Below, one piece after another: positions 39,813-60,937 of a stretch of 64,000 bases of DNA. The DNA comes from Pigmentiphaga aceris (GTDB lineage: Bacteria > Pseudomonadota > Gammaproteobacteria > Burkholderiales > Burkholderiaceae_B): contig NZ_CP043046.1 in NCBI RefSeq assembly GCF_008119665.1, forward strand, positions 248,001 to 312,000, given 5' to 3'. Every line of letters starts with the position of its first letter. Within the stretch, counting starts at the first letter, position 1. Below the pieces are notes generated by a model. That model ran no database searches, was not told where the DNA came from, and saw only the letters and a program-made list of their open reading frames with translations. The position numbers were made by a program, and so were the translations under genes.

Positions 39813-40667
39813 ATGAGTATTGCCGCTGCCATTGACCACACCGCCTGGAAGACCATCGAGCTTGAACGCAAGCCGCATGCAGCCATCGTCTGGTTGAACC
39901 GCCCGACCGTGCGCAATGCCTTCAACGAGGTGATGATTGCCGAGGTCACCGAGGTCTTCCGCTTCCTGTCGGTCGACACCTCGCTGCGAGTGGTGGTGCT
40001 GGCCTCGCGTGGCCCGGTGTTCTGCGCGGGTGGCGATCTGAGCTGGATGAAGTCGATGGCCACCTACACGCCGGAACAGAATCTGGCCGATGCACACGGC
40101 CTGGCCGACATGCTGCGTGTGATCGACCGTTGCCCGCATGCCGTCGTGGCACGAGTGCAGGGTGCCTGCTACGCCGGTGGCCTGGGTCTGGTGACGGTGG
40201 CCGACGTGGCGATTGCCAGCGACGACGCTGAATTCTGCCTGTCCGAGACGCGCATCGGCCTGATCCCGGCCACCATTTCGCCCTATGTGTTGCGGGCCAT
40301 GGGCGAGCGTGAGGCACGCCGCTGGTTCCTGTCGGCCGAACGCTTCGATGCCGCGCGCGCAGCGCGCATGGGCGTGGTGCACGAAGTCGTGCCGGTGGAC
40401 GAACTCGACGCCACCGTGGACCGCCTGCTGGCCACGCTGGTACGCGTCAGCCCGAACGCCCTGCGCGAATCCAAGACGCTGGTGCGCGATGTGGCCGGAC
40501 GCACCATCAGCGACGAACTGATTGACGACACCGCCAGCCGCATTGCGGCCATCCGCGTGTCGGAAGAAGGGCAAGAGGGCGTCAAGTCCTTCCTGGAAAA
40601 GCGCAAGCCCAATTGGCTGCCCCAGGAACTGCCCACCATCTCGGTAACCGCCCCTTCGGAGCAATGA
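39813..40667 (+). CDS. liuC: methylglutaconyl-CoA hydratase (enoyl-CoA hydratase family)
   Basis: A 284-residue crotonase-fold enzyme that hydrates 3-methylglutaconyl-CoA to HMG-CoA. The oxyanion-hole segments are seen in VFCAGGDLSWMK and in GACYAGGLGLV; the SETRIGLIPATISPYVLRAM segment is typical of the LiuC/AUH branch. ATG 39813 is preferred to upstream frames. It overlaps nothing: the liuD start codon follows its stop after one base, which argues for tight translational coupling. Confidence 0.93.
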   Translation: MSIAAAIDHTAWKTIELERKPHAAIVWLNRPTVRNAFNEVMIAEVTEVFRFLSVDTSLRVVVLASRGPVFCAGGDLSWMKSMATYTPEQNLADAHGLADMLRVIDRCPHAVVARVQGACYAGGLGLVTVADVAIASDDAEFCLSETRIGLIPATISPYVLRAMGEREARRWFLSAERFDAARAARMGVVHEVVPVDELDATVDRLLATLVRVSPNALRESKTLVRDVAGRTISDELIDDTASRIAAIRVSEEGQEGVKSFLEKRKPNWLPQELPTISVTAPSEQ

Positions 40668-40668
40668 C

Positions 40669-42687
40669 GTGTTCCAGACCTTGTTGATCGCCAATCGCGG
40701 CGAAATCGCCTGCCGCGTCGCCGCCACTGCCCGCCGACTGGGCATCCGCACCGTTGCGGTGTATTCCGATGCCGATGCCAACAGCCGCCACGTGGCTGCC
40801 TGCGACGAGGCCGTGCACATCGGCGGCCCCGCACCGCGCGACAGTTACCTGCGCGCCGAACGCATTCTGCAAGCAGCCCGCGACACGGGCGCGCAGGCCG
40901 TGCATCCGGGCTACGGTTTCCTGTCGGAGAATGAAGGGTTTGCGAAAGCCTGCGCCGACGCAGGCATTGTCTTTGTCGGCCCGCCGGCATCTGCCATTGC
41001 CGCGATGGGCAGCAAATCCGCCGCCAAGACCTTGATGGAAAAAGCGGGCGTACCCTTGGTACCCGGTTATCACGGCGATAACCAAGACCCCGCTTTCCTG
41101 CATGAACAAGCCGACAAGATCGGCTACCCGGTGTTGATCAAGGCCAGCGCGGGTGGTGGTGGCAAGGGCATGCGCATCGTCGAGGCATCCGCCGATTTCG
41201 ATGCGGCCCTGGTGTCGTGCAAGCGCGAGGCTGCATCCAGCTTCGGCGACGACCGCGTGCTGATCGAGCGCTACCTGAAGAAGCCACGCCACATCGAAAT
41301 CCAGGTGTTTGCAGACACGCACGGCAACGTGGTCTATCTGTTCGAGCGCGACTGCTCGGTGCAGCGTCGCCACCAGAAGGTGATCGAAGAAGCCCCTGCC
41401 CCCGGCATGACCGAAGAACGTCGCCGCTCGATGGGCGAGGCTGCTGTCGCTGCGGCCCGTGCAGTGGGTTATGTCGGCGCAGGCACCGTGGAATTCATTG
41501 CCGAGCCCGATGGCCGCTTCTACTTCATGGAAATGAACACGCGCCTGCAGGTCGAGCATCCTGTGACGGAAATGATCACTGGTTTCGACCTGGTTGAATG
41601 GCAACTGCGTGTGGCGGCAGGTGAAGCGCTGCCGGCCACGCAGGAATCGCTGCGCATTCATGGTCATGCGATCGAAGCACGTGTCTACGCCGAGAACCCC
41701 GACACCGGTTTCCTGCCGTCCATCGGCACGCTGTCGCACCTGGCTTTGCCGCCGCATGTGGCGTTCCAGCGCAATGCCAGCGGCCACGCGGGTGACGAAC
41801 CTGCAGCGGTCCGTATCGACGGCTCGGTGCGCCAGGGCGACACCATCACCCCGCATTACGATCCGATGATCGCCAAGCTGATCGTCTGGGGTGCCGACCG
41901 TGACCAGGCGCGTGCGCGCATGGTGCAGGCGCTGGCGCAGACTCGCGTAGTGGGCGTGCAGACCAACGTGGCGTTCCTCGCGCGGCTGATGCAGGACACC
42001 GCCTTTGCCGCTGCCGATCTGGACACCGGTCTGATCGAACGCCAGCGCGAGACCCTGCTGCCCACACCCAAGCCTGTGGCCGATACGGTGCTGGCGCTGG
42101 CCGTGGCGGCCGTGCTGGCACGCGAGGCAGCCCCGGTGTCGACCGACCCTTGGGCGATTCCCGACAACTGGCGGCCCGGTGGCGTGGCCACCCGCAGCTT
42201 CCAGTTTGACGATCATGGCCAGGTTCGCCACGTATCGCTGCTGCGTCGTCGCAGCGGCCTGGCGCTCGACCTGGGCCAGGGCGAACAGACCTTCACCTGG
42301 GCCACTGCCGACAGCGCGCTGCGTGTGCAAGTGGGCGAGACCCGTGCCGCTGGCACCGTGATCGAACAACCCGGACACGAGCAGGATCGCCTGACCGTGT
42401 TTGTAGGCACCGCTGCGCATCCGTTGATCCTGCAAGACCCGCTGGCGGTGGCCAGCCACGTCGAAGCCGAAGGCGGCCGTCTGACCGCGCCGATGCCGGG
42501 CAAGGTCATCGCTGTGTCGGTCAAGGAAGGTGATGTGGTCGAGCAAGGCCAGCCGCTGCTGGTGATGGAAGCCATGAAAATGGAACACACGATTGGTGCG
42601 CCGAGCGCGGGAACCGTGCGCGAGGTGTTTTACAGTGTGGGGGAACAAGTGCAGGAAGGCGCGCAACTGATCTCGCTGGAGGTCTGA
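40669..42687 (+). CDS. liuD: methylcrotonyl-CoA carboxylase, biotin-containing (alpha) subunit
   Basis: A 672-residue protein with a biotin carboxylase part (residues 1 to about 450: LIANRGEIACRV, ASAGGGGKGMRIVEA, EMNTRLQVEHPVTE) and a C-terminal biotin-carrier domain holding the biotinylation motif VMEAMKMEHT (about residue 637). It carboxylates biotin with ATP and bicarbonate for the liuB partner. The GTG start at 40669 lies one base after the liuC stop. Length and domain order are normal for MccA/LiuD. Confidence 0.96.
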   Translation: MFQTLLIANRGEIACRVAATARRLGIRTVAVYSDADANSRHVAACDEAVHIGGPAPRDSYLRAERILQAARDTGAQAVHPGYGFLSENEGFAKACADAGIVFVGPPASAIAAMGSKSAAKTLMEKAGVPLVPGYHGDNQDPAFLHEQADKIGYPVLIKASAGGGGKGMRIVEASADFDAALVSCKREAASSFGDDRVLIERYLKKPRHIEIQVFADTHGNVVYLFERDCSVQRRHQKVIEEAPAPGMTEERRRSMGEAAVAAARAVGYVGAGTVEFIAEPDGRFYFMEMNTRLQVEHPVTEMITGFDLVEWQLRVAAGEALPATQESLRIHGHAIEARVYAENPDTGFLPSIGTLSHLALPPHVAFQRNASGHAGDEPAAVRIDGSVRQGDTITPHYDPMIAKLIVWGADRDQARARMVQALAQTRVVGVQTNVAFLARLMQDTAFAAADLDTGLIERQRETLLPTPKPVADTVLALAVAAVLAREAAPVSTDPWAIPDNWRPGGVATRSFQFDDHGQVRHVSLLRRRSGLALDLGQGEQTFTWATADSALRVQVGETRAAGTVIEQPGHEQDRLTVFVGTAAHPLILQDPLAVASHVEAEGGRLTAPMPGKVIAVSVKEGDVVEQGQPLLVMEAMKMEHTIGAPSAGTVREVFYSVGEQVQEGAQLISLEV

Positions 42688-42771
42688 GGCGCGGCCGGCC
42701 TGCCTCAAGGGGGACCGCATCGCCGCCTGGCGCGTGCGTGTCCCATCTCCGACCGCTTAGCTGGAACTTTC

Positions 42772-43701
42772 ATGCACATCCTGTATGCCCCCAACGATGC
42801 TGGTGCTTCCGAGTGGATCACCGCGTTGACCGCAGCCGTTCCCGAGGCCACCGTATCGGTCTGGGACCCGGAAGGCCCGAGTGTCGGTGCCGACGTGGCG
42901 GTGGTCTGGGGGCCGCCGAAAAACCTGTTTACGCGCGAACCCGGCCTGAAGGTGGTGTTCACCCGTGGCGCAGGGGTGGACAGCGTGCTGGCCTTGCCCG
43001 ACCAGTCGGCCTCGGTGCGCATCATCCGTCTGGAAGATGCCGGCATGGGCGTGCAGATGGCCGAGTACGTGGTGCACGAACTGGTGCATGCGTCGCGCGC
43101 CTTCGGCAAATTGGCGGTGGCGCAGGCCGAACGCGAGTGGTTGAACCTGCCCGCGACCGAGCGTCGCGATTGGCCCGTCGGCGTGCTGGGCCTGGGGCAA
43201 CTGGGCACCCGTGTGGCGCAAGTGGTCGCCAGCCTGGGTTATCCGGTGGCAGGTTGGTCGCGTTCGCCGCGCGAGGTCGACGGTGTGGAATGTTTCTCTG
43301 GCCAGGCCTCGCTGAATGCCTTCCTGGCGCGCACGCGGGTGCTGGTCAACGTGCTGCCGCTCACCCCGGAAACTGAAAACATCCTTTGCCGCGATACCTT
43401 GTCGCGCCTGTGGCCCGATGCCTACCTGATCAACGTGGCGCGCGGGCATCACCTGGTCGATCAGGACTTGTTGGACTTGCTCGATGCCGGATACCTGGCG
43501 GGTGCGTCGCTGGACGCCTTCCGGGTGGAACCGCTGCCCATCGACCATCCGTTCTGGACTCACCCCAAAATTCGCATTACCCCGCACAACGCAGCCATGA
43601 CCCTGCGCGATGAGTCGATTGTCCAGATTGCCGACAAGCTGGCTGCGCTCGCGCGCGGTGAAACCGTCGGCGGGACCGTCGACCGTCAGCGCGGGTATTG
43701 A
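42772..43701 (+). CDS. ghrA: glyoxylate/hydroxypyruvate reductase A-like 2-hydroxyacid dehydrogenase
   Basis: A 309-residue NAD(P)-dependent D-2-hydroxyacid dehydrogenase. The Rossmann motif is GVLGLGQLGTRVAQ (about 140), the catalytic Arg lies in INVARGHHLVD and the catalytic His in RITPHNAAM. The short N-terminal domain and overall length match GhrA. It is inserted between liuD and liuE, 84 nt after liuD, and could reduce glyoxylate made by the glyoxylate shunt that aceK controls (inference). The assignment to GhrA rather than another member of the family is by overall resemblance. Confidence 0.85.
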   Translation: MHILYAPNDAGASEWITALTAAVPEATVSVWDPEGPSVGADVAVVWGPPKNLFTREPGLKVVFTRGAGVDSVLALPDQSASVRIIRLEDAGMGVQMAEYVVHELVHASRAFGKLAVAQAEREWLNLPATERRDWPVGVLGLGQLGTRVAQVVASLGYPVAGWSRSPREVDGVECFSGQASLNAFLARTRVLVNVLPLTPETENILCRDTLSRLWPDAYLINVARGHHLVDQDLLDLLDAGYLAGASLDAFRVEPLPIDHPFWTHPKIRITPHNAAMTLRDESIVQIADKLAALARGETVGGTVDRQRGY

Positions 43702-43816
43702 GCCTGCCTTTGCTTTGCCGCTGCGTTTCCTTCGCACTCGCAGCGCGTATGAAGGCGCGTAGCGCGGCCACTTTGTCGCGCGCGCTGCCGCGTTTACCGA
43801 TTCCTGGAGTTCGTTG

Positions 43817-44722
43817 ATGTCGTATCCCCAACGCGTGAAGATTGTCGAAGTCGGCCCCCGTGACGGCCTGCAAAACGAAAAAGAACTCGTCCCCACCGAC
43901 GTCAAGGTGGAATTGTGCGACCGCCTGAGCGCAGCCGGTTTCCCCAATGTGGAAGCCACCTCGTTCGTGTCGCCCAAGTGGGTGCCGCAGATGGCCGATG
44001 GTGCGGAAGTGATGGCGCGCATCGCGCGTCGTCCGGGCACCATCTACTCGGTGCTCACGCCGAACATGAAGGGTTTTGAAGGCGCACTGGCTGCCAAGGC
44101 CGATGAAGTCGTGATTTTCGGCGCGGCCAGCGAAGCGTTTTCACAGAAAAACCTGAACTGTTCGATTGCCGAATCCATGGACCGCTTCGCGCCCGTGGCT
44201 GAAGCCGCGAAGGCGCATGGCATCCGTCTGCGTGGTGCGCTCAGCACTGCGCTGGGCTGCCCTTACCAAGGCGAAGTGCCGATCGAAGACGTGCTGTATG
44301 TGGCGCGCCGCTTCAAGGAAATGGGCTGCATCGAGATCGACATTGCCGACACCATCGGCGTGGCCACCCCGCAGAAAGTGCGCAAGGTGATGGAAGCCGT
44401 GGCCAAGGAATTCCCCATCGAGGGCATCGCCGGTCACTTCCACGACACCTACGGCCAGGCCGTGGCCAACGTGGTGGCGGCGCTGGATGTGGGCATCAGC
44501 ATCTTCCATTCGTCGGCTGCCGGCCTGGGCGGCTGCCCGTTCGCCAAGGGCGCAACTGGCAACGTGGCCAGCGAAGACGTGCTGTACCTGATGCGCGGTC
44601 TGGATATCGAAACCGGCGTCGATCTGGATGCCGTGGTCGATACCGGCCAATGGATCTCGGCGCACCTGCAGCGCAAGTCCTCGCGCGCCGGCAACGCGAT
44701 CGCAGCCAAGCGCGCAGCATAA
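43817..44722 (+). CDS. liuE: hydroxymethylglutaryl-CoA lyase
   Basis: A 301-residue TIM-barrel lyase that splits HMG-CoA into acetyl-CoA and acetoacetate, the final liu step. Visible motifs are EVGPRDGLQNE (catalytic Arg-Asp), the metal His pair in GHFHDTYGQA, and the active-site Cys loop GGCPFAKGATGNVASED. ATG 43817 is preferred to a TTG three bases earlier because CTGGAG ends 7 nt upstream. It follows ghrA by 115 nt and closes the catabolic block. Confidence 0.96.
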   Translation: MSYPQRVKIVEVGPRDGLQNEKELVPTDVKVELCDRLSAAGFPNVEATSFVSPKWVPQMADGAEVMARIARRPGTIYSVLTPNMKGFEGALAAKADEVVIFGAASEAFSQKNLNCSIAESMDRFAPVAEAAKAHGIRLRGALSTALGCPYQGEVPIEDVLYVARRFKEMGCIEIDIADTIGVATPQKVRKVMEAVAKEFPIEGIAGHFHDTYGQAVANVVAALDVGISIFHSSAAGLGGCPFAKGATGNVASEDVLYLMRGLDIETGVDLDAVVDTGQWISAHLQRKSSRAGNAIAAKRAA

Positions 44723-46229: not shown

Positions 46230-47927
46230 TCAAACCTTGAACGTCCCCACCAGCGTATCCAGTCGCACCGACATGTCACGCATGTCGCTGGCCGAACGCG
46301 CGGTTTCTTCCATGCCCGCGTTGGTCTGTTCGACCATTTGTGCAATGCCTTCCACACGCTGCGCAATCGAGGTACTGGCCGACGATTGTTCGCGCGTGGC
46401 ATGGGCCACTTCACGCACGCGTTCCAGGGTCTGGTCTGCACGGTGACGGATTTCACGCAGCGACTCGGCCACATGCTGCGTGAGCGACGTGCCTTCTTCC
46501 ACAATCGGGCGAACCCGGCTCATGGTCGCGGTCGAGTCCTTGGTCTCGGCTTGCACCGCGTGCACCATCTGCTCGATTTCAATCGTGGCAGACGCCGTCC
46601 GTTCCGCCAGCTTGCGCACCTCGTCTGCCACCACGCTGAAGCCGCGCCCTTGCTCACCGGCGCGCGCTGCTTCAATTGCGGCATTCAGCGCCAGCAGGTT
46701 GGTCTGCGACGCGATTTCCTTGATCGATGCGGCAATCACATTGATCTGCTCGGCGCGCAATTCCAGGCCTGCGATTTTTTCCGACGCTTCGCCCACGGCC
46801 GCCGCAATGCGCTGCATGCCGCTGGAGGCGCTGTTGACCTGGCTTTCGCTGTCGCGGCACAACACGGCCACGCCTTCCGACAGTTTCTCGGTTTCCAGTG
46901 CGGCTTCCGAAATATGGCTGACCGATACCGTCAGTTCTTCAATCGCAGCAGCCATCGATGCCGTGGCCTCGCTCTGGCTGGCGGTGGCGGCCGAGACCTG
47001 GTGCACCGATTCCGACAGGCGATTGGCGTCGCGGCTGAGTGAACCCGCTTCATCGCGCACGTTGACGATCATGCCGCGAATGGACTGCGACATGGCCCCA
47101 AACGCCGCCAGCAGGCTGCCTGGTGCCGACGCGTTGGATGCGCTGCCGGTGAAGTCGCCTTCGGCCGCGCGCTGCATCACCACCACTGCGCCTGCCGGCT
47201 CGCCGCCCAGCTGGCGCATCACGCGGCGCACGATCAATACGCCGCCAAGCACCAGAATCAGTGTCACGACAATGGCCAGCACGGCGCTCTGGACCAGTTC
47301 ATCGTGGAATTCCGCCTCGACACGATCCAGCCAGACACCGGTGCCCACCACCACACCCCAGGGTTCGTACAAGCTGATGATGTTCTGCTTGCGCATGGGT
47401 TCCGGCGACCCGGCGCGTGCAAGCAGCGTGCTGTAGACAAGCTCTCCCTTGTTGGCGCGCATGTCGGCAACCCGGGCGGCGGCAATGGCTTCCTTGGTGG
47501 TATTGCCCACCACGGCGCGGAACTGGTGTTGCCCTTCCTGCGCAGCGTTCGCGTGCACCAGGGTAATGGCATCTTTTTCACGCCAGACGAACACGTAGTC
47601 GGCGTTGTCGCCGAAGCGGATACTGCGCAGGGCCTCATAGGCCGTCTGTTCCGCCTGCTCGCGCGGCATCTGGCCTGACGAGGCAAGCTTGGCGTAGCGG
47701 TCCAGCACGCTTCGGGCGGCCTGGGTGATGGAGCGGATCTCGGTGGTCTTGGCTTCAAGCTGCTGTTGATAGCTGCGATATACCGAATAGACCTGAATGC
47801 CGATCAGCAGAAGCGCGGCAAGCGCCACCAGGCCGTACAGCTTCAGGCGGAATGCCTCACGCCAGCCGCTGCGGGGTGCGCGGGAGTGAGCAGGCGATAC
47901 GGGAGCATGGACCAGGGTAGCGGCCAT
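46230..47927 (-). CDS. methyl-accepting chemotaxis protein 1 of 7 (sCache_2-like sensor)
   Basis: A 565-residue chemoreceptor. TM1 spans about residues 29-50; a periplasmic single-Cache-like domain about 58-200 contains [25 protein letters not shown] and [17 protein letters not shown]2 is about 212-233; a HAMP-like segment follows; the signalling domain (about 300-560) carries the tip motif [20 protein letters not shown]. The tail ends LVGTFKV with no CheR/CheB-docking pentapeptide. Its linker [17 protein letters not shown] differs from all other copies. AAGGA precedes the ATG. It is the 3'-most member of the array and is separated from copy 2 by a terminator and a long gap, so it is probably transcribed alone. 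Confidence 0.94.
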
Positions 47928-48377
47928 GAGAGATCCTTCGTGGGTGATGTGGGCAGACAAGCGATCCGCCCAGCGTGAAATACAAGGCTGGTGTCGACGC
48001 GCAATGCCCCTGGTCGGCGCGGGAACCGCACGACCGGCAAAACGTCACCAGCAACAACGGGGAAGTGAGCCTGTGAACAGGGACCACGCAGGGACCTGTG
48101 TACGGAGGCAAGGACAACGCGGGGGCAAGGCCTCAAAGGCTGCGGCTTTGGACCAAGCCCATGCCTGAACGCCATGACCGCCAAGCGTTTGCAGCCGGCT
48201 CGTCGTGAACTGACGGCCTCTGTATGAACGGCAAAAATCCGGGTTTCTTGATGACCGTTGGTCTGGTATCCAAGTGGATCATCCTGGCTTGTCGCGCCGT
48301 GTGCGGTGTGACTTGAACGTATTTCCAAAAACACTTCCGCGTGGCACGGACATTCACCAGCAAGTAAAAGATAAACG
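47928..48377 (-). other. Upstream region of chemoreceptor 1 (no gene seen)
   Basis: About 450 nt without a credible gene. On the minus strand the segment 48251-48225 reads TCAA, 15 nt, GCCGTTCA, which resembles the flagellar sigma-28 promoter (TAAA-N15-GCCGATAA) at 3 of 4 and about 6 of 8 positions. It is 300 nt from the start codon, so it is only a candidate. Confidence 0.3.
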
Positions 48378-48414
48378 CAAAAAAACGCGCTCGCTGACAG
48401 GGTCAGCGAGCGCG
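48378..48414 (-). terminator. Rho-independent terminator of chemoreceptor 2
   Basis: A perfect 13-bp stem (48386-48398 with 48402-48414) and a 3-nt loop are followed on the minus strand by a T-run (A-run 48379-48385 on the plus strand). It lies 24 nt beyond the stop codon of copy 2. Confidence 0.9.
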
Positions 48415-48437
48415 TCGATACGTTCGCCCTGTCTTTG

Positions 48438-50162
48438 TCAGACCTTGAACTGGCCTACCAGCGTATCCAGACGCACCGACATATCACGCATGTCGCTGGC
48501 CGAGCGCGCGGTTTCTTCCATGCTGGCGTTGGTTTCTTCAACCATCTGCGCAATGCCTTCCACACGCTGCGCAATCGCCGTGCTGGCCGACGATTGCTCG
48601 CGGGTGGCGTTGGCCACTTCACGGATGCGTTCCAAGGTCATGTCGGCACGGCTACGGATTTCGCGCAGCGATTCGGCCACTTCGTGGGTCAGCGACGTAC
48701 CTTCTTCCACGATCGGACGCACGCGGCTCATGGTGGCCGTCGAATCCTTGGTTTCGGCCTGCACGGCCTGCACCATCTGTTCGATTTCAATCGTGGCAGA
48801 CGCGGTACGTTCGGCCAGCTTGCGAACCTCGTCAGCCACCACGCTGAAGCCGCGACCTTGTTCACCGGCGCGCGCCGCTTCAATCGCGGCGTTGAGCGCC
48901 AGCAAGTTGGTCTGCGACGCGATTTCCTTGATGGCTCCGGCGATCACATTGATCTGCTCGGCACGTGCTTCCAGTCCGGCAATTTTGGTGGATGCCTCAC
49001 CCACGGCTGCCGCAATGCGCTGCATGCCGCTGGATGCGCTGTTGACCTGGTTTTCGCTGTTGCGGCACAGGCTGGCCACGCCTTCCGACAACTTCTCGGT
49101 TTCGATCGCGGCTTCCGAGATATGACTGACCGACACCGTCAGTTCTTCAATCGCCGCAGCCATCGAAGACGTGGCTTCGCTTTGTGTGGTGGCGGCGGTG
49201 GTGACCTGCTGGACCGAATCGGCCAAACGGGTGGCGTCAGTCTTCAGCGTGCCCGCTTCGCCCCGGATGTTCTGCAGCGTGCTGCGGATCGAGCCGGACA
49301 TGTCACCGAAGGCGGCCAACAGGCTGCCCGGATGGGCGCGGCCGTTGTCGGTGCGCGAGAAGTCGCCTTGTGCGGCGGCGGTCATGACCTGCACGGCACC
49401 GGCCGGCTCGCCACCCAACTGACGCATCACGCTGCGCACGATCAGCATGCCGATCACCAGCAGCAGTGCAATCGCAACGATGGACACGACGATGCTCTCG
49501 ATGATGCTTTCGCGGAAAGCGGCGTCGACGCGATCCAGGTACGTCCCAGATCCCACCACCAGGCCCCAGGGCTCATAGATGGTGTTCATGTTCATCTTGG
49601 TGACGGGTTGCGAGGCACCCGGGCGTGCTTGCAGCACCTGGGCGAACTCGCGGCCGCCCTTGGCACGAACGCTGTCGACACGCGCCTGTGACACCTTTTC
49701 GGCGGCCTCCAGCGGCATGTTTCTCAAGGCCACCGACACACGTGTGATCGAGCCTCCTTCGATGCCGGGTACGCCGTGCACCACGGCAATCTTGTCGCTG
49801 ATGCGCCAGGCGAAGACGAAGTCCTTGTCCGGTCCGAAGCGCATGCCACGCAGCGCCTGGTAGGCCTGCGTTTCCGCCGTGGCGCGATCAATCTTGCCTT
49901 CCTTGACCAGCTTGTCGAAGCCATCGAGCACCCCCATGGCCGAATCCAGCACCGAGCTGAGTTCGGTTTCCTTGGCCTCGATCTGTTCCTGATAGTTGCG
50001 CACCAGCGTGTAGGCGTTGAATGCCAACAGCAGCAGGGCTGCCACCGCCACCAGGCTGTAGAGCTTGAGGCGGAATGAGGCGCGCCAGGCTTTTTTGGAT
50101 CGCCGCGACGCAGTCGGAGCTTGTGTCAGGATGGGTGATGACGGAGGGAAGGTGGCTGCCAT
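48438..50162 (-). CDS. methyl-accepting chemotaxis protein 2 of 7 (sCache_2-like sensor)
   Basis: A 574-residue receptor built like copy 1. The sensor domain has [26 protein letters not shown] and [15 protein letters not shown]; the central stretch [20 protein letters not shown] lacks the DSRPKEVI motif seen in copies 5-7. Together with copy 3 (also PDKDFVFAW and VGSG) it forms the most divergent sensor pair. The signalling half is nearly identical to copies 3 and 5. It ends in its own strong terminator, which cuts it off from copy 1. Confidence 0.94.
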
Positions 50163-50271
50163 GGCGCGTAGGGTTCCAGAAAACAGAGAAGGGCGCGTTC
50201 ATGACGTGCCCACGTGACAATCTATTGATGAAAAGGTGTTCCCGGTCTGCAGAACTTATCGTGTCGAAGCC

Positions 50272-50295
50272 GTCAGAGGCGTTAAGTCCTCTGAC
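50272..50295. repeat. Inverted repeat after chemoreceptor 3
   Basis: GTCAGAGG (50272-50279) and CCTCTGAC (50288-50295) form a perfect 8-bp stem, 6 nt beyond the stop of copy 3 on the minus strand. No T-run follows, so termination is uncertain. Confidence 0.5.
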
Positions 50296-50301
50296 TTAGC
50301 C

Positions 50302-52008
50302 TCAGACCTTGAACTGTCCGACCAGGCTGTCCAGGCGTACCGACATGTCGCGCATGTCGCTGGCCGAACGGGCTGTCTCTTCCATGCTGGCGTTGGTTTC
50401 TTCGACCATCTGCGCAATGCCTTCCACGCGCTGTGCAATCGAGGTGCTGGCCGACGATTGTTCACGGGTGGCATTGGCCACTTCACGCACGCGTTCCAGG
50501 GTCATGTCGGCACGGCTGCGAATTTCGCGCAACGATTCCGCCACTTGGTTGGTCAGCGAGTTGCCTTCCTCGACGATGGGCCGCACGCGGCTCATGGTTG
50601 CCGTCGAATCCTTGGTTTCGGCTTGCACGGCCTGCACCATCTGTTCGATCTCGATGGTGGCGGACGCCGTGCGCTCGGCCAGCTTGCGCACCTCGTCGGC
50701 CACCACGCTGAAGCCCCGGCCTTGCTCGCCGGCGCGTGCCGCTTCAATCGCGGCGTTGAGCGCCAGCAAGTTCGTCTGCGATGCGATTTCCTTGATCGCG
50801 CCGGCGATCACGTTGATCTGTTCGGCGCGTGCTTCCAGGCCGGCGATCTTGGTGGACGCTTCACCCACGGCTGACGCAATGCGCTGCATGCCGCTCGACG
50901 CGCTGTTGACCTGGCTTTCGCTGTTGCGGCACAAGGTAGCCACGCCTTCCGACAGCTTTTCCGTCTCGATGGCGGCTTCAGAAATATGGCTGACCGACAC
51001 CGTCAGTTCTTCAATCGCAGCGGCCATCGAAGCCGTGGCTTCGCTCTGGTGGCTGGCGGCCGATGACACTTGCTCTACCGATTCCGACAGGCGGCCTGCA
51101 TCGCGTTTGAGCGAGCTGGCTTCGTCACGGACATTGACGATCATGCCGCGAATGGAGCCGGACATATTGCCGAAGGCGGCCAGCAGGCTGCCGGGAATCG
51201 TCTTGCCATAAGTATGGATGGCAAAGTCGCCGTCGGCGGCGCGCTGCATGACGGCAACGGCGCTGGCGGGTTCGCCGCCCAGTTGGCGCATCACGCTGCG
51301 CACGATTAAGGCACCGCTCAGCAGCAGTACGCCGATCACGGCCAGCGAAATGATGATGCCCTTGATCAGATCGGCACGCAGATTGTCCTGGATATTGTCC
51401 AGCCACACACCCGAACCCACCATCAGACCCCAGGGTTCGTACAGCGCGCTCAAGTTGAGTTTGGCGACCGGGGCTTCCGTGCCCGGGCGCTTTTGCATCA
51501 CCTGAACGTATTCACGTCCGCCCGCAGCACGCACGGCGTTGATACGCGCCTGTGCCATTTCGACAGGCGAGCGGCCATTCGACACCACGTTGCGGGCAAT
51601 CGACTGACCTTCGGTCCCCGGAATGCCATGCACCATTGCAATGGTGTCGGCCAGTCGCCACGCGAAGACGAAGTCCTTGTCCGGGCCGTAGCGCATGCCG
51701 CGCAAGGCCTCGTAGGCCTGTTGTTCGGCCGTGGCGCGATCTAGCTTGCCGTCGTCGACTTGCTTGGCATACCGGTTGAGTACGCCAATGGCGGCGTCCA
51801 GCACCGAGCCGACTTCCCGTTGCTTGGCTGCAAGCGCTTCCTGATAGTTGCTGTACAGCGTGTAGGCATTGAAGCCCAGCAGCAGGACGGTGGCTACCGC
51901 AACCAGGGCATACAACTTCACGCGAAACGAATTTCGCCAGCCTTGCAAGCTGCGGCGCACGGGTTTGTGGGCGTGCAGGGCTACAGGCGTGGCGAGGGTG
52001 GTTTCCAT
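50302..52008 (-). CDS. methyl-accepting chemotaxis protein 3 of 7 (sCache_2-like sensor)
   Basis: A 568-residue receptor. The ATG at 52008 ([10 protein letters not shown]) places TM1 at about residues 30-52; frames extending to 52182 cover non-coding-looking sequence. Sensor hallmarks are [26 protein letters not shown] and [15 protein letters not shown]. The loop between them reads [17 protein letters not shown], unlike any other copy, while PDKDFVFAW ties it to copy 2. The cytoplasmic domain from about residue 300 is almost the same as in copies 2 and 5. Confidence 0.94.
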
Positions 52009-52174
52009 GTCGTCTCGTATTCGGGGTGGGTAAAATCGAATTTGTCGATAGGGATAGTTACCTGTTACGACAAAAATCAATCCCCCGAATAGCGGGAATC
52101 TGGCCAATCGTGCCGAAAACACCACAGCCAACCGCATGGTCGACTGGTCAGCACGCCTTGTCATGAAACGGCAT

Positions 52175-52199
52175 GGGAGCACTGTTAAGCAATGCTCCC
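52175..52199. repeat. Inverted repeat after chemoreceptor 4, possible terminator
   Basis: GGGAGCA (52175-52181) and TGCTCCC (52193-52199) pair perfectly and can extend inward with one mismatch. The element lies 10 nt beyond the copy-4 stop on the minus strand; no clear T-run follows. Confidence 0.5.
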
Positions 52200-52208
52200 T
52201 GCGTTCGA

Positions 52209-53909
52209 TCAGACCTTGAAGGCACCCACCAGGCTGTCCAGCCGTACCGACATGTCACGCATGTCGCTGGCCGAACGCGCCGTTTCTTCCATGGTGGCGT
52301 TGGTTTCTTCCACCATCTGCGCAATGCCTTCGACGCGTTGCGCAATCGAGGTGCTGGCCGACGACTGTTCGCGGGTGGCGTGGGCCACTTCGCGCACGCG
52401 TTCCAGACTCATGTCGGCACGCTGGCGGATCTCGCGCAGCGAATCGGCCACCTGGCGGGTGAATGCCGTGCCTTCGTCCACGATCGGGCGCACCCGATCC
52501 ATGGTGATCGTCGATTCCCGGGTCTCGGTCTGGACGGCATTGACCATCTGCTCGATTTCCACCGTGGCAGAGGCCGTGCGTTCAGCCAGCTTGCGCACTT
52601 CGTCGGCCACTACGCTGAAGCCACGGCCTTGTTCCCCGGCACGCGCCGCTTCAATCGCGGCGTTCAAGGCCAGCAGATTGGTTTGCGAGGCAATTTCCTT
52701 GATCGACGCGGCAATTACCGAAATCTGTTCTGCACGCGTTTGCAGACCGGCGATCTTGGTGGACGCATCGCCCACGGCGGTGGCGATGCGTTCCATGCCT
52801 TCAGAGGCGCTGTTGACCTGGCCTTCGCTGCTGCGGCACAGGCTGGCAACGTCTTCCGACAGCTGTTCGGTGTCGCGGGCGGCCTCTGAGATATGGCTGA
52901 CCGAGACGGTCAGTTCTTCAATGGCAGCCGCCATCGAGGCCGTGGCCTCGCTCTGGTGGGTGGATGCCTTGGACACCTGGTGCACCGATTCCGACAGGCG
53001 CGTGGCGTCTTCCCGAAGCGCGCCGGCTTCGTCGCGCACGTTCACGATCATGCCGCGCACCGACGCCGACATGTCACCGAACGCAGCCAGCAGGCTGCCT
53101 GCCGGCACACGACCGGTGCCAAGCTGGCTGCCTTGTGTGAAGTCACCGCCGGCGGCCTGTTGCATGACCAGCACTGCACCGGTGGGTTCACCGCCCAATT
53201 GGCGCATCACACCACGCACGATCCAGATGCCGCCCAGAACCAGCACCAGAATGACCAGCACCGAGGTCACCACGCGTTCGATCAGGTCTGCACGGAATTC
53301 GGCTTCTACCCGGTCCAGGAACACGCCCGTGCCCACCACCACGCCCCAAGGTTCGAACAAGGCATTGATGTTCTGCTTGGGCAGCGGATCGGGCATGCCG
53401 GCACGGGTCTGCGTGACCCGCGCCAAGGCCTGGCCACCGGCTTTGCGCAGCACGCCCAGCCGGTCGGCAACGATCACATCCTTGGGCCGCTTGTCGGTGC
53501 CGATGTTGAATTGGTACTGGCCTTCCTGGCTGGCAATGCCGTGGACCATGGTGATTGCATCGCTGATGCGCCAGGCGAAGACGTAGTCGTCGTTTTCGCC
53601 ATAGCGCATGCCGCGCAGTGCGTCATAGGCGGCGCGCTCGGCATCTTCGCGGGACATTTTCCCTTGCTCGGCCAGCGTGGCGTAGCGTTTGAGAATGCCC
53701 AATGCCGTCTGCATCACCGACTGGATTTCGGTGGTCTTGGCTTCAAGCTTGTCGTGATAGCTCAGCACCACGGAATAGGTCTGCAAGGCGATCATCAGCA
53801 GTGCAGCAATCGCCACCAAGCCATACAGCTTGGCGCGGAATCCGGCCTGCCAGCGCGAGGTGCGCGTGGCAGCAGGCGGCGGGGAAATGGAAGAATGGGT
53901 AGCGTTCAT
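52209..53909 (-). CDS. methyl-accepting chemotaxis protein 4 of 7 (sCache_2-like sensor)
   Basis: A 566-residue receptor starting at ATG 53909 ([10 protein letters not shown]). The sensor shows [27 protein letters not shown] and [15 protein letters not shown], with [17 protein letters not shown] between. Its signalling domain is the most divergent of the set: [40 protein letters not shown] and [15 protein letters not shown] differ from the common versions, although the tip is unchanged. This suggests an older duplicate or one less subject to gene conversion. Confidence 0.94.
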
Positions 53910-54347
53910 GTGGCGTCTCGGTAGGGCGGTTGTCGGCCCGAGGGGCCAGTTCAAGCCTGGTGCACAGGGCGCGATCGCAACGCGGCGGCCTTCATGCGGT
54001 TGCCGCATGATGACTGGCTGTCAGCGTGTCAATCGAAGGAACTGGCGGGTGTTTGTACGTGTTTATACGTATCTGCTGGGAAGCCGTTTTTTCAAACGTC
54101 GCATCGCGCCAACACGGTCGTCGGACCGTGGGGCAGGAGGCATGTACGGCATGCAAAAGGGATCGGATTCAGGCCGGGCGAAATCAGCGATTCGCGTGGT
54201 GCGGCTTGGGGATGCGGCATGTGAGATGCCGCATTGAAAGACCCCATCAGCCGGGCCTGCCGGCCCGACTGAACGAGGTAAAAAGTCTGAGGCAGAGATC
54301 CGTGATTGGATCTGGCTGCTTCAGACCTGCAATTCAGACTTGCAAGG
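53910..54347 (-). other. Gap between chemoreceptors 4 and 5 with hairpins, no gene
   Basis: 438 nt without a credible gene. Near the copy-5 end are two inverted repeats: ATGCGGCAT/ATGCCGCAT (54212-54220 and 54226-54234) and a CGGGCC/GGCCCG hairpin at about 54255-54270. These may end the copy-5 transcript. The remainder presumably holds the copy-4 promoter, which I could not identify. Confidence 0.45.
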
Positions 54348-56048
54348 TCAGACCTTGAAAGCACCCACCAGCGTATCCAGACGCACCGACATGTCACGCA
54401 TGTCGCTGGCTGAACGGGCTGTTTCTTCCATGCTGGCATTGGTCTGTTCGACCATCTGCGCAATGCCTTCCACACGCTGTGCAATCGAGGTGCTGGCCGA
54501 CGACTGTTCGCGGGTGGCGTTGGCCACTTCGCGTACACGTTCCAGGGTCATGTCGGCACGGCTGCGAATCTCGCGCAGCGACTCCGCCACCTGATGCGTG
54601 AGCGACGTGCCTTCTTCCACGATCGGACGCACGCGGCTCATGGTCGCGGTCGATTCCTTGGTTTCGGCCTGGACGGCATGCACCATCTGCTCGATCTCAA
54701 TCGTGGCAGACGCCGTACGTTCAGCCAGCTTGCGCACCTCGTCGGCCACCACGCTGAAGCCCCGGCCCTGCTCACCGGCACGGGCGGCTTCAATTGCCGC
54801 GTTCAAGGCCAGCAAGTTGGTCTGCGATGCAATTTCCTTGATGGCCGCTGCAATCACATTGATCTGCTCGGCGCGTGCTTCCAGACCAGCGATCTTGGTG
54901 GATGCCTCACCCACGGCCGAAGCAATACGCTGCATGCCGCTGGACGCGCTGTTGACCTGGTCTTCGCTGTTGCGGCACAGGCTGGCGACACCTTCGGACA
55001 GCTTCTCGGTTTCAATCGCGGCTTCCGAGATATGGCTGACCGACACCGTCAGTTCTTCAATCGCAGCAGCCATGGAAGATGTGGCTTCGCTCTGGTGGCT
55101 GGCGGCCGACGACACTTGCCCCACGGATTCCGACAGGCGTTCGGCGTCGCGTTTGAGCGAGCCGGCTTCGTCACGCACGTTGACGATCATGCTGCGAATG
55201 GAACCCGACATGTCACCGAAGGCGGACAGCAGGCTGCCGGGGATTTTCTTGCCGCTGGTGGATGTGGTGAAGTCACCGTTGGCCGCCTGCGCCATCACGC
55301 GCACGGCACCGGCAGGCTCGCCACCCAGCTGGCGCATGACCGAGCGGACGACGACCAGGCCCAGGCCCAGCAGCACCAGCGCCGAGATGGCGCTGAGCAC
55401 CACGCTGGCAATGATGTCTCGTCGGAATTCGGCTTCCACGCCATCCAGCCAGACGCCGGTACCGATCACCACGCCCCAGGGTTCGTAGATGACACCGACG
55501 TTCTGCCGTCCGACCGGCTCGGTGGTGCCAGGGCGCTTCTGCATGACCTGGTACAGACGGCGACCGCCGTTGGCGCGCATGTCGTTGACGTTTTCGGCAA
55601 CGATGGCTTCGCGGGGACGCGAATCGACCACGCTGCTGAACATCATCCGGCTTTCCTGTTCGGGCGTGGCATGTACCAGGGTGGCACCGTTTTCCACCTT
55701 CCAGGCAATCATGTAGTTCTTGTTGTCGCCATAGCGCATGCCGCGCACGGCCCGGAAGGCTTGCTTCTGTGCTTCGGCCATATCAAGGGTGCCATCCTTG
55801 ACCAGCTTGTCGTAGGTCGCAAGAATGCCCACCGCCGCATCGGCCATCGACGAGATTTCGTCACGCTTGGAATCAAGGGCGTCTTCGTGGGTTTTCACCA
55901 CCCCGTAGATCTGCAGCGCGATCAACAGGATGGTGGCAATACAGACCAGGCCATACAGCTTCAGGCGGAAAGAATCGCGCCAGGTGTTGCGACGTGATGA
56001 GGCAGCTGTGGGGCTGGTGGCGGGCGGCGTGGAGAGAACGGCAGCCAT
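54348..56048 (-). CDS. methyl-accepting chemotaxis protein 5 of 7 (sCache_2-like sensor)
   Basis: A 566-residue receptor. Its sensor is the most individual: [20 protein letters not shown] replaces the usual [24 protein letters not shown] replaces the EGQ(N/Y)QF segment, and [15 protein letters not shown] follows. The motif [13 protein letters not shown] relates it to copies 6 and 7. TM1 is [18 protein letters not shown] (about 33-50). The signalling half matches copies 2 and 3 closely. A 253-nt gap separates it from copy 6. Confidence 0.94.
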
Positions 56049-56301
56049 AAAACCTTTTCTGATGGATGCGAGCGGGGGAATCTGGATACAGCGGGTATCC
56101 CGTCGTACCTACTTTGGCACTGCCGTGATCCCGGCGCGGCACGGCCGGGAAAAAGCGGTAACTGCATTAACGACCAGGCACGGAAGAACATTAGGGTTAA
56201 TACCTAAATGCGCTTGGTTCTCGTTCACTTTTCCGGCTGACTTGTCTTGTGCCGCAGCAGGAGTGCTGCACGTGCAGCACGCCCGCTTCGCCATACCTTG
56301 C

Positions 56302-58011
56302 TCAGACCTTGAAGGCGCCTACCAACTGATCCAGGCGCACCGACATGTCGCGCATGTCGCCTGCCGAACGGGCGGTTTCTTCCATGCTGGCGTTGGTCTG
56401 TTCAACCATTTGCGCAATGCTCTCCACGCGTTGGGCAATCGCGGTGCTGGCCGACGATTGTTCACGGGTGGCATTGGCCACTTCACGCACGCGTTCCAGC
56501 GTCATGTCGGCACGGCTGCGGATTTCGCGCAGCGAATCGGCCACGTGCTGGGTCAGCGCATTGCCTTCGTCAACGATCGGTCGCACACGCGCCATGGTCT
56601 GCGTCGATTCCTTGGTCTCGCGCTGCACGGACGACACCATCTGCTCGATCTCAATCGTGGCCGATGCCGTGCGTTCAGCCAGCTTGCGCACCTCGTCGGC
56701 CACCACGCTGAACCCACGGCCTTGCTCACCAGCACGGGCGGCTTCAATCGCGGCGTTCAAGGCCAGCAGATTGGTCTGCGATGCGATTTCCTTGATCGAT
56801 GCGGCAATCACGTTGATCTGCTCGGCACGTGCTTCCAGGCCGGCGATCTTGGTGGACGCTTCACCCACAGCAGAAGCAATGCGTTGCATGCCTTCGGACG
56901 CGCTGCTGACCTGGCTTTCGCTGCTGCGGCACAAGCTGGCCACGCCTTCCGACAACTGCTCGGTTTCGATTGCGGCGTCCGAAATGTGATTGACCGACAC
57001 CGTCAGTTCTTCGATGGCTGCGGCCATCGAGGCCGTGGCTTCGCTTTGGTGACCGGCGGCGGATGACACCTGCTGCACCGATTCCGACAGACGGCTGGCA
57101 TCGTGTCGCAACGAGCCCGCCTCGGTCCGCACATTGACGATCATGCTGCGAATCGATCCCGACATGTCACTGAAGGCCGTCAACAGACTGCCCGCGCTGC
57201 GTTTGCCGCCGAGCGTCGAGCCGCTGAAATCGCCGCCTGCGGCGCGCTGCATGACCTGTACCGCACCAGCCGGTTCACCACCAAGCTGGCGCATCACGCT
57301 GCGTACGACCAGGGAGCCACCTGCGATCAGCAGCAGCGCGGCGACGGCGGTCTGGATCAGGCTGAAGATCATGCCTTGTTGAAAGGCGTCGTTGACCCGA
57401 TCCATCCAGGTACCGGTGCCGACCACCAGGCCCCAGGGTTCGAAGATCACGATGATGTTCATCTTCGGCAGCGGTGCCGAGTCGCCGCGTTTCTGCATCA
57501 CGTTGTTCATGGCTTCGCCGCCACTGCTGCGGATGCTGTTCACACGGTCTGCCGCAATGACTTCCTTGGGGCGCGAATCGGTGATGTTGCGGAACTGGTT
57601 CTGGCCTTCCTGGCCCGGAATGCCGTGTACCACCGTCGTCGCATCGGAAATGCGCCAGACGAACACGTAATCGGCGTTGTCACCAAAACGCATGCCGCGC
57701 AGGGCTTCGAACGCGGCCTGCTCGGCCTGGGCGCGATCCATCTTGCCGTCGGTCACCAGCTTGGCGTAGCGCCCCAGAATGCCGGTTGCGGATTGCGATA
57801 CTGATCGGATTTCATTGATCTTGGCGGTCACCTGTTGCTGGTAGTCGCTATATACCGACCAGGCCTGCAGTACCAGCACGATGAGGGTCGCCAGGGCCAC
57901 CAGGCCATACAGCTTCAGACGGAACGAATCGCGCCAGCGACCTCGCGCAACGGTGGCGGGTGTCGTCGCAGTGACGGGGGAAGAAAAGGCGTCGGAGGGG
58001 ATGGCAGCCAT
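56302..58011 (-). CDS. methyl-accepting chemotaxis protein 6 of 7 (sCache_2-like sensor)
   Basis: A 569-residue receptor starting at ATG 58011 ([10 protein letters not shown]) with AGGA 5 nt upstream. Sensor: [40 protein letters not shown] and [15 protein letters not shown]. It is the nearest relative of copy 7. The signalling domain has private changes ([30 protein letters not shown]), while [17 protein letters not shown] is shared only with copy 7. Confidence 0.94.
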
Positions 58012-58294
58012 GTCGATCCTAGGATGACTGTGTAAAGACGAATGTGTCGGTGAAGCCATACGGATGACGAGCGGGCGCGGATGAGGCGATGTCGCACGTT
58101 TTGAATAAAGAGGGTCGAATCGCCAGCAATGACGCAGGTTTTCTGCTCGGGCAGATGCCGCAGGCGGGCGTGCGCGACCATGACGCGATGATGACTGAGC
58201 GCGAACGGCTCAATCGAATGAATTAGAAGGTTTTTTGGGGCTTCGGCGGTTGAGCCTAATAATTTATTAGGGAAAGCCCGAGCAATTTACTGCG

Positions 58295-58822
58295 TTATTT
58301 ACGCAGCGCGGTTTTACCCGGTGGCAAGATAACCACGCTTTGCAGGCAGTAACGCCGGTGCTCGGGAAAACCGAAACCGATAGTGCCCGCCTCATCCGTC
58401 ACTGCGTAATAGGTCTGTTCGTGAATGGCACCGCCACGCGGCGCATCGGTCAGTTTTACACCCGGATAATTCTTGCGAACAGTATGTTGACGCACGCAAA
58501 TGCGATCGATATCGAATGCCAATCGTTTTATCGTCAACGGGAACGCTTTGGGCACCCGATATTCAAGATAATCCACACTGCCTTGGCGCAGTGGAAATTC
58601 AGATGTTTGAAAGGTGCTGACCGTATCGGTGTCGTTGACCAATTCGGCCGGTATCGGCAACAAGGCTTCCACGTCGCTTACGCCGCCAGACACCGCGCCG
58701 CGCATCTGGTGTACGAATTGCCAGAACTCAGTTGCCGACCGGTCGCCAGCCACGGCAATCGATGACAGGCTGCCCAAAACCAGGGCAGCTGCGAGCAGGG
58801 CGGCGGGATGACGCAGGGACAT
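58295..58822 (-). CDS. Exported protein of unknown function inside the chemoreceptor array
   Basis: A 175-residue protein. The ATG at 58822 gives a clear signal peptide (MSLRHPAALLAAALVLGSLS, cleavage near AVA-GDRS). The mature part has about 150 residues with two Cys (DRICVRQH and RYCLQSVV) that could form a disulfide, and ends KTALRK. I do not recognise the family. It lies 70 nt after the copy-7 stop and 283 nt before copy 6, on the same strand, and may be co-transcribed with copy 7. A periplasmic accessory or ligand-binding role is possible but only suggested by position. Confidence 0.75.
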   Translation of the reverse strand: MSLRHPAALLAAALVLGSLSSIAVAGDRSATEFWQFVHQMRGAVSGGVSDVEALLPIPAELVNDTDTVSTFQTSEFPLRQGSVDYLEYRVPKAFPLTIKRLAFDIDRICVRQHTVRKNYPGVKLTDAPRGGAIHEQTYYAVTDEAGTIGFGFPEHRRYCLQSVVILPPGKTALRK

Positions 58823-58892
58823 CGTCGTCGTGGGTGCGAAGAAGGGAGACCGGCACTCTATCACCCTGTCGTGCCGGCCGTACTACCACGCG

Positions 58893-60596
58893 TCAGACTT
58901 TGAAGGCACCCACCAGGGTGTCCAGGCGCACCGACATGTCGCGCATGTCACCGGCCGAGCGGGCGGTTTCTTCCATGCTGGCGTTGGTTTCTTCAACCAT
59001 CTGCGCAATGCTCTCCACGCGTTGCGCAATCGCGGTGCTGGCCGACGATTGTTCACGGGTGGCATGGGCCACTTCACGCACGCGTTCCAGCGTCATGTCG
59101 GCGCGGCTGCGAATCTCGCGCAGCGATTCCGCTACCTGATTGGTCAGCGAAGTGCCTTCCTCCACGATGGGCCGGATGCGGCTCATCGTGGCGGTGGATT
59201 CTTTGGTCTCGGCGTTCACGGCGTGCACCATCTGCTCGATTTCAATCGTGGCAGACGCCGTACGTTCGGCCAGCTTGCGCACTTCGTCGGCCACCACACT
59301 GAAACCACGGCCCTGCTCACCGGCGCGGGCCGCTTCAATCGCCGCGTTCAAGGCCAGCAGATTGGTCTGGGACGCGATTTCCTTGATCGCCCCGGCAATC
59401 ACATTGATCTGCTCGGTGCGCGCTTCCAGACCGCTGATCTGGGCAGACGCTTCACCTACGGCTGCCGCAATGCGCTGCATGCCGCTCGCCGCGCTGTTGA
59501 CCTGGCCTTCGCTGTTGCGGCACAGGGTCGCCACGCCTTCGGAGAGTTGCTCGGTTTCAATGGCGGCATCCGAAATGTGGTTGACCGAGACCGTCAATTC
59601 TTCGATGGCCGCCGCCATGGACGACGTCGCTTCGCTCTGGTGACCCGCTGCGGCAGAAACCTGCTGGACCGATTCCGACAGGCGGCCTGCGTCGTGTCGC
59701 AACGATCCGGCTTCGTTGCGCACATTGACGATCATGTTGCGAATCGAGTTCGACATGTCGCCAAAGGCGGCCAGCAGGCTGCCGGGCACCCGTTTGTCAC
59801 TGCGACCGCTGGTGAAATCGCCGGCAGCTGCCTGCTTCATCACCTGCACCGCACCGGCCGGTTCCCCGCCCAACTGGCGCATGACACTTCGCACGATCAG
59901 CGCACTGCTCAGGATCAGCAGCAGTGCGGCAGCCAGCGTCTCCAGCCCGCTTTTCAGCAAGCCCCGCTCGAACGCCTCGTCGACATGATCGAGCCACACG
60001 CCGGTACCCAATACCAAGCCCCACGGCTCGAAAATCATGGTGATGTTCTGCTTGGGCAGCGGATCGGGCGAGTCGCCCCGTTTCTGCATCACCAAGGTCA
60101 GTGCCGAGCCGCCTTGGCTGCGCAGTGCCTTGACGCGATCGGCGGCAATGACCTCTTTGGGGCGGGAATCGACAATGGCGCGGAACTGGTTCTGACCTTC
60201 CTGAGCAGGATTGGCGTGCACGACCGTCGTGGCATCTGCCATGCGCCAAACAAACACGTAGTCGGCATGGTCGCCAAACCGCATGCCACGCAAGGCTTCA
60301 AACGCCGCGTGTTCGGCCTGCGGGCGCGTAAGTTTGCCGTCGTCCACCGCTTTGGCAAAGCGCGTCAGAATGCCGATTGCCGACTGCGCCACCGAGCGAG
60401 CCTCTGTAGTTTTGGCTGCGATCTGCTGGCGATAATCGCTGTAGACCACCCAGGCCTGCAAGGCGATCACGATCAGCGTGGCCAAGGCCACCAGCGCGAA
60501 AAGCTTCACGCGAAACGATTGATGCCAGCGCGATCTTTGAGCGGTGTTCAGCGTACTGGGCGGGGAAGTCGGGGTTTGGGCTAGAGGGGTAGTCAA
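58893..60596 (-). CDS. methyl-accepting chemotaxis protein 7 of 7 (sCache_2-like sensor)
   Basis: A 567-residue receptor. I chose the TTG at 60596 ([10 protein letters not shown]) because AGGAT lies 4 nt upstream, as in copies 1 and 6; a TTG at 60611 is the alternative. Sensor: [40 protein letters not shown] and [15 protein letters not shown]. Its VHANxAQEG stretch resembles copy 1, while the rest resembles copy 6. It is the 5'-most copy of the array and is separated from the MFS gene by an intrinsic terminator. Confidence 0.93.
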
Positions 60597-60937
60597 GTTA
60601 ATCCTGAACAACAGGTGAATGCTAAGAATCGGTGAATGTGCACGCGAACTACCGTCTTCGTTTTGCGCAAATCAACGCAACCGGGGCGTGGGCAAAAAAG
60701 ACGTGGCGGATAAAAAAACCCGTGCTGAACACGGGCTTGAATATCGACGCAAAGCATCCTTGTCGCGAGACGACTCAACCAGATTGATTAGTGGTGCTGG
60801 TGGGATAGTTTTTTATCGGGGTGGAAATATATGACGGTTTTTTTCTCGCCGCAATATCATTTGCGGCAATTAATTATTCCGTTGTTCGATATCAGACTGT
60901 CATCAAACTGAATTCCAAGGCGGTGTGCATCCCGTCG
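60597..60937. other. Gap between the MFS gene and chemoreceptor 7
   Basis: 341 nt without a gene. It contains the MFS terminator and an AT-rich part with a GCCGCAA/TTGCGGC hairpin (60848-60854 and 60861-60867). The copy-7 promoter should lie between 60600 and 60710 but I see no convincing boxes. Confidence 0.5.
60712..60735 (-). terminator. Rho-independent terminator downstream of the MFS gene
   Basis: The stem CCCGTG/CACGGG (60719-60724 and 60730-60735) with a 5-nt loop is followed on the minus strand by seven T (60712-60718). It is about 200 nt past the MFS stop. Confidence 0.8.

Follow-up and report, generated by a model that had tools for sequence, protein, structure and literature searches.

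A tandem array of seven single-Cache chemoreceptor genes in Pigmentiphaga aceris, likely of old origin, with diverged sensors on conserved signalling halves

The sequence analysed is a 64,000 nt stretch from Pigmentiphaga aceris (contig NZ_CP043046.1, positions 248,001–312,000), here called the window, and coordinates refer to it unless stated. Positions 46230–60611 on the minus strand hold seven chemoreceptor genes, m1 to m7, that lie head to tail. It is probable that this array formed by old duplications, that its sensors, which are predicted to recognise carboxylates, report through a shared pathway, and that recombination at the hinge between sensor and signalling half has occurred rarely in this lineage. 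The Pfam profiles MCPsignal (137.6–144.2 bits, cut-off 34.6) and sCache_2 (52.8–68.3 bits, cut-off 25) match all seven copies. This agrees with an initial annotation of the window, which had described seven same-strand genes for methyl-accepting chemotaxis proteins with differing Cache-like sensors and had proposed the sCache_2 search. The start codons of m1, m3, m4 and m6 are internal to their open reading frames (ORFs) and were picked by eye. The genes are listed below; P numbers denote related proteins.

m1, 46230–47927, minus strand: sCache_2 chemoreceptor with sCache_2 and MCPsignal domains; ORF 46230–47960, opening at 47960; sensor orthologues P0012, P0024, P0026 and P0028
m2, 48438–50162, minus strand: sCache_2 chemoreceptor; ORF 48438–50162; sensor orthologues P0035 and P0031
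m3, 50302–52008, minus strand: sCache_2 chemoreceptor; ORF 50302–52182, opening at 52182; sensor orthologues P0019 and P0033
m4, 52209–53909, minus strand: sCache_2 chemoreceptor; ORF 52209–54008, opening at 54008; sensor orthologues P0036, P0042, P0029 and P0034
m5, 54348–56048, minus strand: sCache_2 chemoreceptor; ORF 54348–56048; sensor orthologues P0002–P0008
m6, 56302–58011, minus strand: sCache_2 chemoreceptor; ORF 56302–58059, opening at 58059; sensor relatives P0041, P0013 and P0020
189-aa ORF, 58295–58864, minus strand: not a chemoreceptor gene; lies between m6 and m7, 28 bases past the m7 stop, and interrupts the array
m7, 58893–60611, minus strand: sCache_2 chemoreceptor, m6-like; ORF 58893–60611, start codon uncertain; no orthologue of its own seen

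The layout, judged by eye from the alignment, appears to be a hydrophobic stretch, the sensor, a second hydrophobic stretch and the cytoplasmic half. A conserved hinge, VMRQLGGEP, follows the second hydrophobic stretch, and its LGGE was taken as the boundary between sensor and signalling half. The m2 sensor is five residues longer in the alignment than the other copies. Over the 21 pairs, amino acid identity is 0.42–0.66 in the sensor (mean 0.479) and 0.79–0.92 in the signalling half (mean 0.849), and the sensor diversification that had been proposed is supported. The signalling halves had also been called nearly identical. They are alike, but the wording is too strong, as the DNA of the last 300 nt is 81–89% identical (among the 20 repeat families listed, of 26) and no two copies share an identical tract longer than 57 nt (the m3–m6 pair). 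The sensor tree places m6 and m7 in one group (support 100/99) and m2 and m3 in another (100/100), as the initial annotation had read them. A group of m1 and m4 has no support in this tree, and m5 does not stand apart but joins m2/m3 (95/95).

The genome is a single contig of 6.17 Mb with 46 MCPsignal matches, at least 20 of which are in tandem groups of 7 (this array), 5, 3, 3 and 2. Two of the matches (G000:C1:6099540-6100034 and 135748-136239, genome coordinates) have one internal stop codon each, and in both the match may overrun the gene end. With m5 as query, the nearest proteins of the genome are the other six copies (67–71% identical) and the next best is 52% identical, in accord with local duplication. 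The array thus presents adjacent paralogues with a conserved signalling half and a diverged sensor, the pattern of the PctA type. This contrast is not special to the array, because an unlinked trio of receptors in the same genome shows it, as do the other tandem groups (L091, L092, L093 and L098, of 5, 3, 3 and 2 genes), with sensors 24–60% and signalling halves 74–93% identical when divided 150 residues before the tip instead of at the hinge, and, more strongly, the PctA/B/C receptors discussed below.

Silent sites and the sensor phylogeny indicate that the array is likely old and arose by old, not recent, duplications. At four-fold degenerate sites the sensors have an identity of 0.511 compared with 0.493 expected from composition alone, so they are saturated. 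The signalling halves have 0.604 compared with 0.487 expected. No conversion would be expected between the array and the unlinked trio; the identity between the signalling halves of the two is 0.528 compared with 0.449 expected from composition. Of the excess of 0.117 within the array, 0.079, or about two thirds, therefore needs no conversion. Each of m1–m6 clusters in the sensor tree with metagenomic relatives of the same type, and m7 lies inside the m6 group. Because each sensor from m1 to m6 has metagenomic orthologues of its own, the sensor types predate the species. A recent amplification, which the initial annotation had suggested and had proposed to examine by a synonymous comparison of the two halves, is not supported, given these orthologues and silent sites that are at saturation in the sensors and close to it in the signalling halves.

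A GENECONV-type test, likewise proposed in the initial annotation, gives no indication of conversion at silent sites, with lowest global p values of 0.432 (whole gene) and 0.482 (signalling half). If all nucleotide sites are used, the whole gene has three short runs below 0.05: m3–m6 at columns 393–406, m4–m7 at 187–196 and m2–m4 at 118–125. When the halves are taken separately with all sites, m3–m6 passes in the signalling half (0.022), and m4–m7, m2–m4, m2–m5 (0.016) and m1–m5 (0.044) pass in the sensor. In triplet tests none of 210 passes Bonferroni correction at silent sites. At full length at least 12 of 210 pass with all nucleotides, and the same lower bound holds with amino acids, but the unequal rates of the two halves favour such passes. 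When the test is confined to the signalling half, no triplet passes for nucleotides and 2 of 210 pass for amino acids (m1 between m4 and m2; m3 between m2 and m4). Recent gene conversion in this genome is rejected on the silent-site results. Distances between signalling halves within a contig are below the cross-contig mean in 27 of 38 pairs (means 0.144 and 0.152), and of the 20 pairs in this genome 11 lie below the cross-genome mean and the other 9 do not. Pairs closer than every cross pair number 4 of 20 in this genome and 7 of 38 over all contigs. Gene conversion, which had been raised as a possibility, is therefore not supported as the main cause of uniformity.

Concerted evolution was also considered from the ratio of signalling to sensor divergence, which is 0.186 and 0.210 in paralogues and 0.366 in orthologues (m7, P0009, P0010, P0021, P0025 and P0031 belong to no orthologue group). 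It was set aside since, judging from comparisons with the outgroup (0.277) and the trio (0.161), a higher rate of change in the sensors accounts for the lower paralogue ratio equally well. Because the array is old, the trio shares most of the excess, the tracts are short and no silent-site conversion signal survives correction, the uniformity of the signalling halves is mostly conservation. We read exchange as rare and not as continuing homogenisation.

The clearest apparent case of exchange is a graft of an unrelated sensor in relatives of the array. Five metagenomic proteins (P0056, P0057, P0059, P0060 and P0068) have a sensor unlike Cache joined at the LGGE hinge to an array-type signalling half. 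Their sensors are 53–62% identical to those of P0121, P0122, P0124, P0128, P0129 and P0131, but their signalling halves are only 30–37% like those of the same six proteins. The opposite holds for m2, m5 and m6, with 76–87% identity in the signalling half and 19–27% in the sensor. P0126 is intermediate (sensor 30–31%, signalling half 45–48%). In the signalling tree the five proteins form one clade (95/95) inside the m6 group, which is most simply explained by a single graft in which the recipient was a signalling half of the m6 type. Scans of four of the five reveal no Pfam sensor family. P0131, a relative of the graft sensors, carries PF12729, which we take to be a four-helix-bundle family, and the graft sensor may accordingly be helical. 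The longest contig is 63,824 bases for one graft protein and also for five Cache-type array members, so that this graft receptor presumably lies within their array. In the P. aceris genome there is no full-length match to P0059; the array copies match it only from about residue 166.

In two other relatives the type appears to switch where the hinge lies. The informative residues of P0010 favour an m6/m7 type in the sensor (69:14) but the P0004 type in the signalling half (29:2). In P0031 they favour the m2 type in the sensor (101:9) and the m1 type in the signalling half (58:8). In addition, P0057 has an m6-type end at residues 374–532 (31:0). In switch tests these three proteins reach the floor p of 0.00005, compared with 0.010 to 0.975 for six orthologue controls. 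Weaker or null values, depending on the parent, were obtained for P0018 (0.00005 and 0.053) and P0016 (0.00095 and 0.218). P0041, the metagenomic m6 relative, has a C-terminal part that looks frame-shifted by eye, perhaps through an assembly or sequencing error or decay of the gene. The sensor swaps between signalling domains that had been anticipated find support in metagenomic relatives; long tracts of identity that would drive such swaps at present are not supported, the maximum being 57 nt.

Within the array itself, m7 is m6-like except at residues 366–495, where all 14 informative residues are m5-like. Over the full length this tract is apparent in amino acids and in all nucleotides and reaches the floor p of 0.00005, and a switch test of m7 with parents P0020/P0004 gives a weaker p of 0.0032. 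It has no silent-site signal, and in the signalling half alone the p values of 0.0006 and 0.0014 (parents m2 and m3) fail correction. The tract is thus either old or shaped by selection.

The hinge is also a peak of DNA identity among the seven copies, with 0.79 at the hinge, 0.50 before it and 0.46–0.58 after it; identity climbs equally high again from column 285 onward. A role of the hinge as a shared DNA word was dropped as too weak, the degenerate pattern having four occurrences in the genome, two of them inside the array.

In the account that we favour, old duplications would have produced seven single-Cache chemoreceptors in tandem, and the sensor types split before the species did, as the orthologues show. 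The seven sensors would report through a shared chemotaxis pathway. The signalling half may have been kept alike mainly because there is little room for change at the surfaces that contact CheA, CheW and adjacent receptors. Rare recombination near the hinge, suggested by the mosaic proteins of relatives, would have joined different sensors to signalling halves of this kind in the lineage. Several observations weigh against the recombination part or the diversity of ligands. There is no silent-site signal of recombination in the closed genome. Approximately unbiased (AU) tests reject orthology of the signalling halves in none of five suspected sets (p 0.617, 0.126, 0.568, 0.168 and 0.242), and in two of the five the orthology-constrained tree is better than the free tree; the five unrelated-sensor proteins, which make up a sixth set, already form a single clade. 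Outside m7, the evidence for swaps comes entirely from metagenomic proteins, known as protein sequence alone, among the matches listed, and chimaeric assembly is possible for those on short contigs (P0031, 2,111 bases). Pairs within a contig are barely closer than pairs across contigs. Finally, nine columns of the pocket described below are identical in m6 and m7, and only one of them differs in m4. On balance, exchange was probably a rare and ancient event.

Duplication and selection could have acted with no exchange at all, the sensors adapting to new ligands and the signalling halves being kept by purifying selection alone. This is quite possible, though not the account that we find probable. 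The failure of AU tests to reject orthology, the missing silent-site conversion signal after correction, the small difference between within-contig and cross-contig distances and the same contrast in the unlinked trio all agree with it, but the five receptors with an unrelated sensor need at least one swap, P0010 and P0031 switch type at the hinge, and the m7 tract is m5-like by 14:0 in amino acids. The discordant proteins from metagenomes might instead be assembly chimaeras, in which reads were joined across similar signalling halves. The short contigs of P0031 and P0009 (longest 2,111 and 4,121 bases) would permit this. However, P0004 and P0010, with a longest contig of 63,824 bases for both, have signalling halves that are similar (95.1%) but not identical, and the unrelated-sensor type occurs five times, on longest contigs of 3,779 to 233,383 bases, which makes the explanation unlikely. 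That the array was amplified recently and that gene conversion maintains a uniform signalling part is very improbable: the 79–92% identity of the signalling halves, their somewhat higher four-fold identity than that of the sensors and the 27 of 38 close pairs would fit it, but near-saturated silent sites, short tracts, the lowest silent-site p of 0.432 and sensor orthologues in other organisms argue against it. A bolder proposal is that, in this betaproteobacterial lineage, the array is a standing receptor workshop built on a conserved signalling half, whose hinge accepts sensors of unrelated families and where ligands are gained by hinge crossover and point mutation, the graft and the hinge switches being its products. 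We regard this extension of old duplication with rare exchange as rather doubtful.

The seven sensors are predicted to bind carboxylic acids, likely not all the same, from sequence alignment with PscD of Pseudomonas syringae pv. actinidiae (5G4Y/5G4Z), the nearest solved sensor by sequence (E 2.4e-17 with m5). According to the available part of its description, PscD is an sCache sensor that binds C2 and C3 carboxylates through Tyr90, His103, Tyr143 and Lys156, with Trp92, Trp145 and Phe126 packing the ligand; its authors regard Tyr90, His103 and Lys156 as critical to carboxylate binding and attribute the exclusion of larger acids to the bulky hydrophobic residues (PMC5062169). The carboxylate contacts are largely kept in the array. 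Tyr90 corresponds to Tyr in five copies and Phe in m2 and m3, Lys156 to Lys in six copies and Arg in m5, and His103 to His in all seven (offset by one column in the multiple alignment, in register in the m5 pairwise alignment). The pocket region that fits PscD to C2 and C3 acids differs: in all seven copies Trp92 is replaced by Phe or Ile, Trp145 by Gln or Leu, Tyr143 by Val or Thr and Phe126 by Ala or Gln, so that no copy has the full set of seven PscD contacts found in the PscD/McpP C2/C3 type. With the contacts largely kept and the bulky wall replaced, acids larger or more polar than C2 and C3 are predicted. The pocket columns set apart m1, m2 and m3, and m5, and their states are mostly common to each orthologue group, with exceptions such as P0033. 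In m4, m6 and m7 the near identity of the columns provides no pocket reason for different ligands. The best-scoring NCBIfam family for m5 is CtpM (NF058645), whose ligand we take to be malate, but membership is ruled out as the score of 177.7 bits (residues 38–566) is far under the family cut-off of 900.

Diverged sensors on conserved signalling halves are already known, and this array is a large and old example. The following comparisons draw on the accessible parts of the cited reports. PctA, PctB and PctC of Pseudomonas aeruginosa are likewise neighbouring duplicated paralogues, with signalling domains > 96% and sensors < 56% alike, compared with 79–92% and 42–66% here, and a binding motif that is kept while flanking positions vary by paralogue cluster is a further likeness (PMC6974571). 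Two relatives in that study hold eight and nine homologues. The Pct sensors are dCache_1 amino acid sensors encoded by three genes close together, unlike the seven sCache_2 copies here, and that part of the report mentions no sensor graft such as that seen in relatives of this array. Tlp2, Tlp3 and Tlp4 of Campylobacter jejuni also combine diverged sensors with conserved signalling domains, and extensive recombination among Tlp proteins is reported (PMC9769880, PMC5080441, PMC6433261); Tlp11 is judged by its authors to be likely a recent domain swap (PMC5080441). The Tlp2/3/4 signalling domains are identical, in contrast to 79–92% here, their sensors are dCache_1, and neighbouring pairs of tlp genes are mentioned, not an array of seven. 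Among the papers listed by a literature search with most subscription papers outside its scope, no title concerned the array of this lineage, and no title or opening of an abstract concerned Pigmentiphaga receptors.

The cited studies of ligand gain used paralogue sets of about three, as far as their available parts tell, and this array offers seven sensors, all old and from a single family, whose signalling halves are comparable. Its orthologues and the hinge-point hybrids in relatives allow tests of which pocket residues set the ligand, and the natural hybrids allow a test of whether signalling is retained.

Among the genomes searched the array is otherwise unseen: a match at E 1e-170 was obtained in 1 of 268 genomes of the family (five best candidates scored per genome). 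Ten genus mates have one or two related receptors each, 51–54% identical to m5, and three named Pigmentiphaga proteins match m5 at 53%. A species-wide contig scan with m5, which finds close relatives only, gave five loci of 25–35% identity, none near enough for array membership. No empty site can be defined, because the ten genus mates lack a match to either the metallo-hydrolase or the HMGL-like flank (at thresholds of 1e-50 and 1e-80, respectively) and the major facilitator superfamily flank is only 51–56% alike in them.

Upstream of the genes, the best matches to a sigma-28 site have 9 of 12 positions, with 7 such sites in 2,149 bases, compared with 92 of at least 9 on both strands of the window, a comparison uncontrolled for base composition. 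The 189-aa ORF that interrupts the array matches no family in Pfam (threshold 0.001) or NCBIfam (threshold 0.01). Its N-terminus resembles a signal peptide by eye, and its single weak match among plasmids is from Eleftheria terrae (27.9%). Positions 38075–44722 on the plus strand encode a carboxyltransferase, an enoyl-CoA hydratase, a biotin carboxylase with a methylcrotonyl-CoA carboxylase BT domain, a 2-hydroxyacid dehydrogenase and an HMGL-like protein, and are read as a leucine/isovalerate breakdown cluster.

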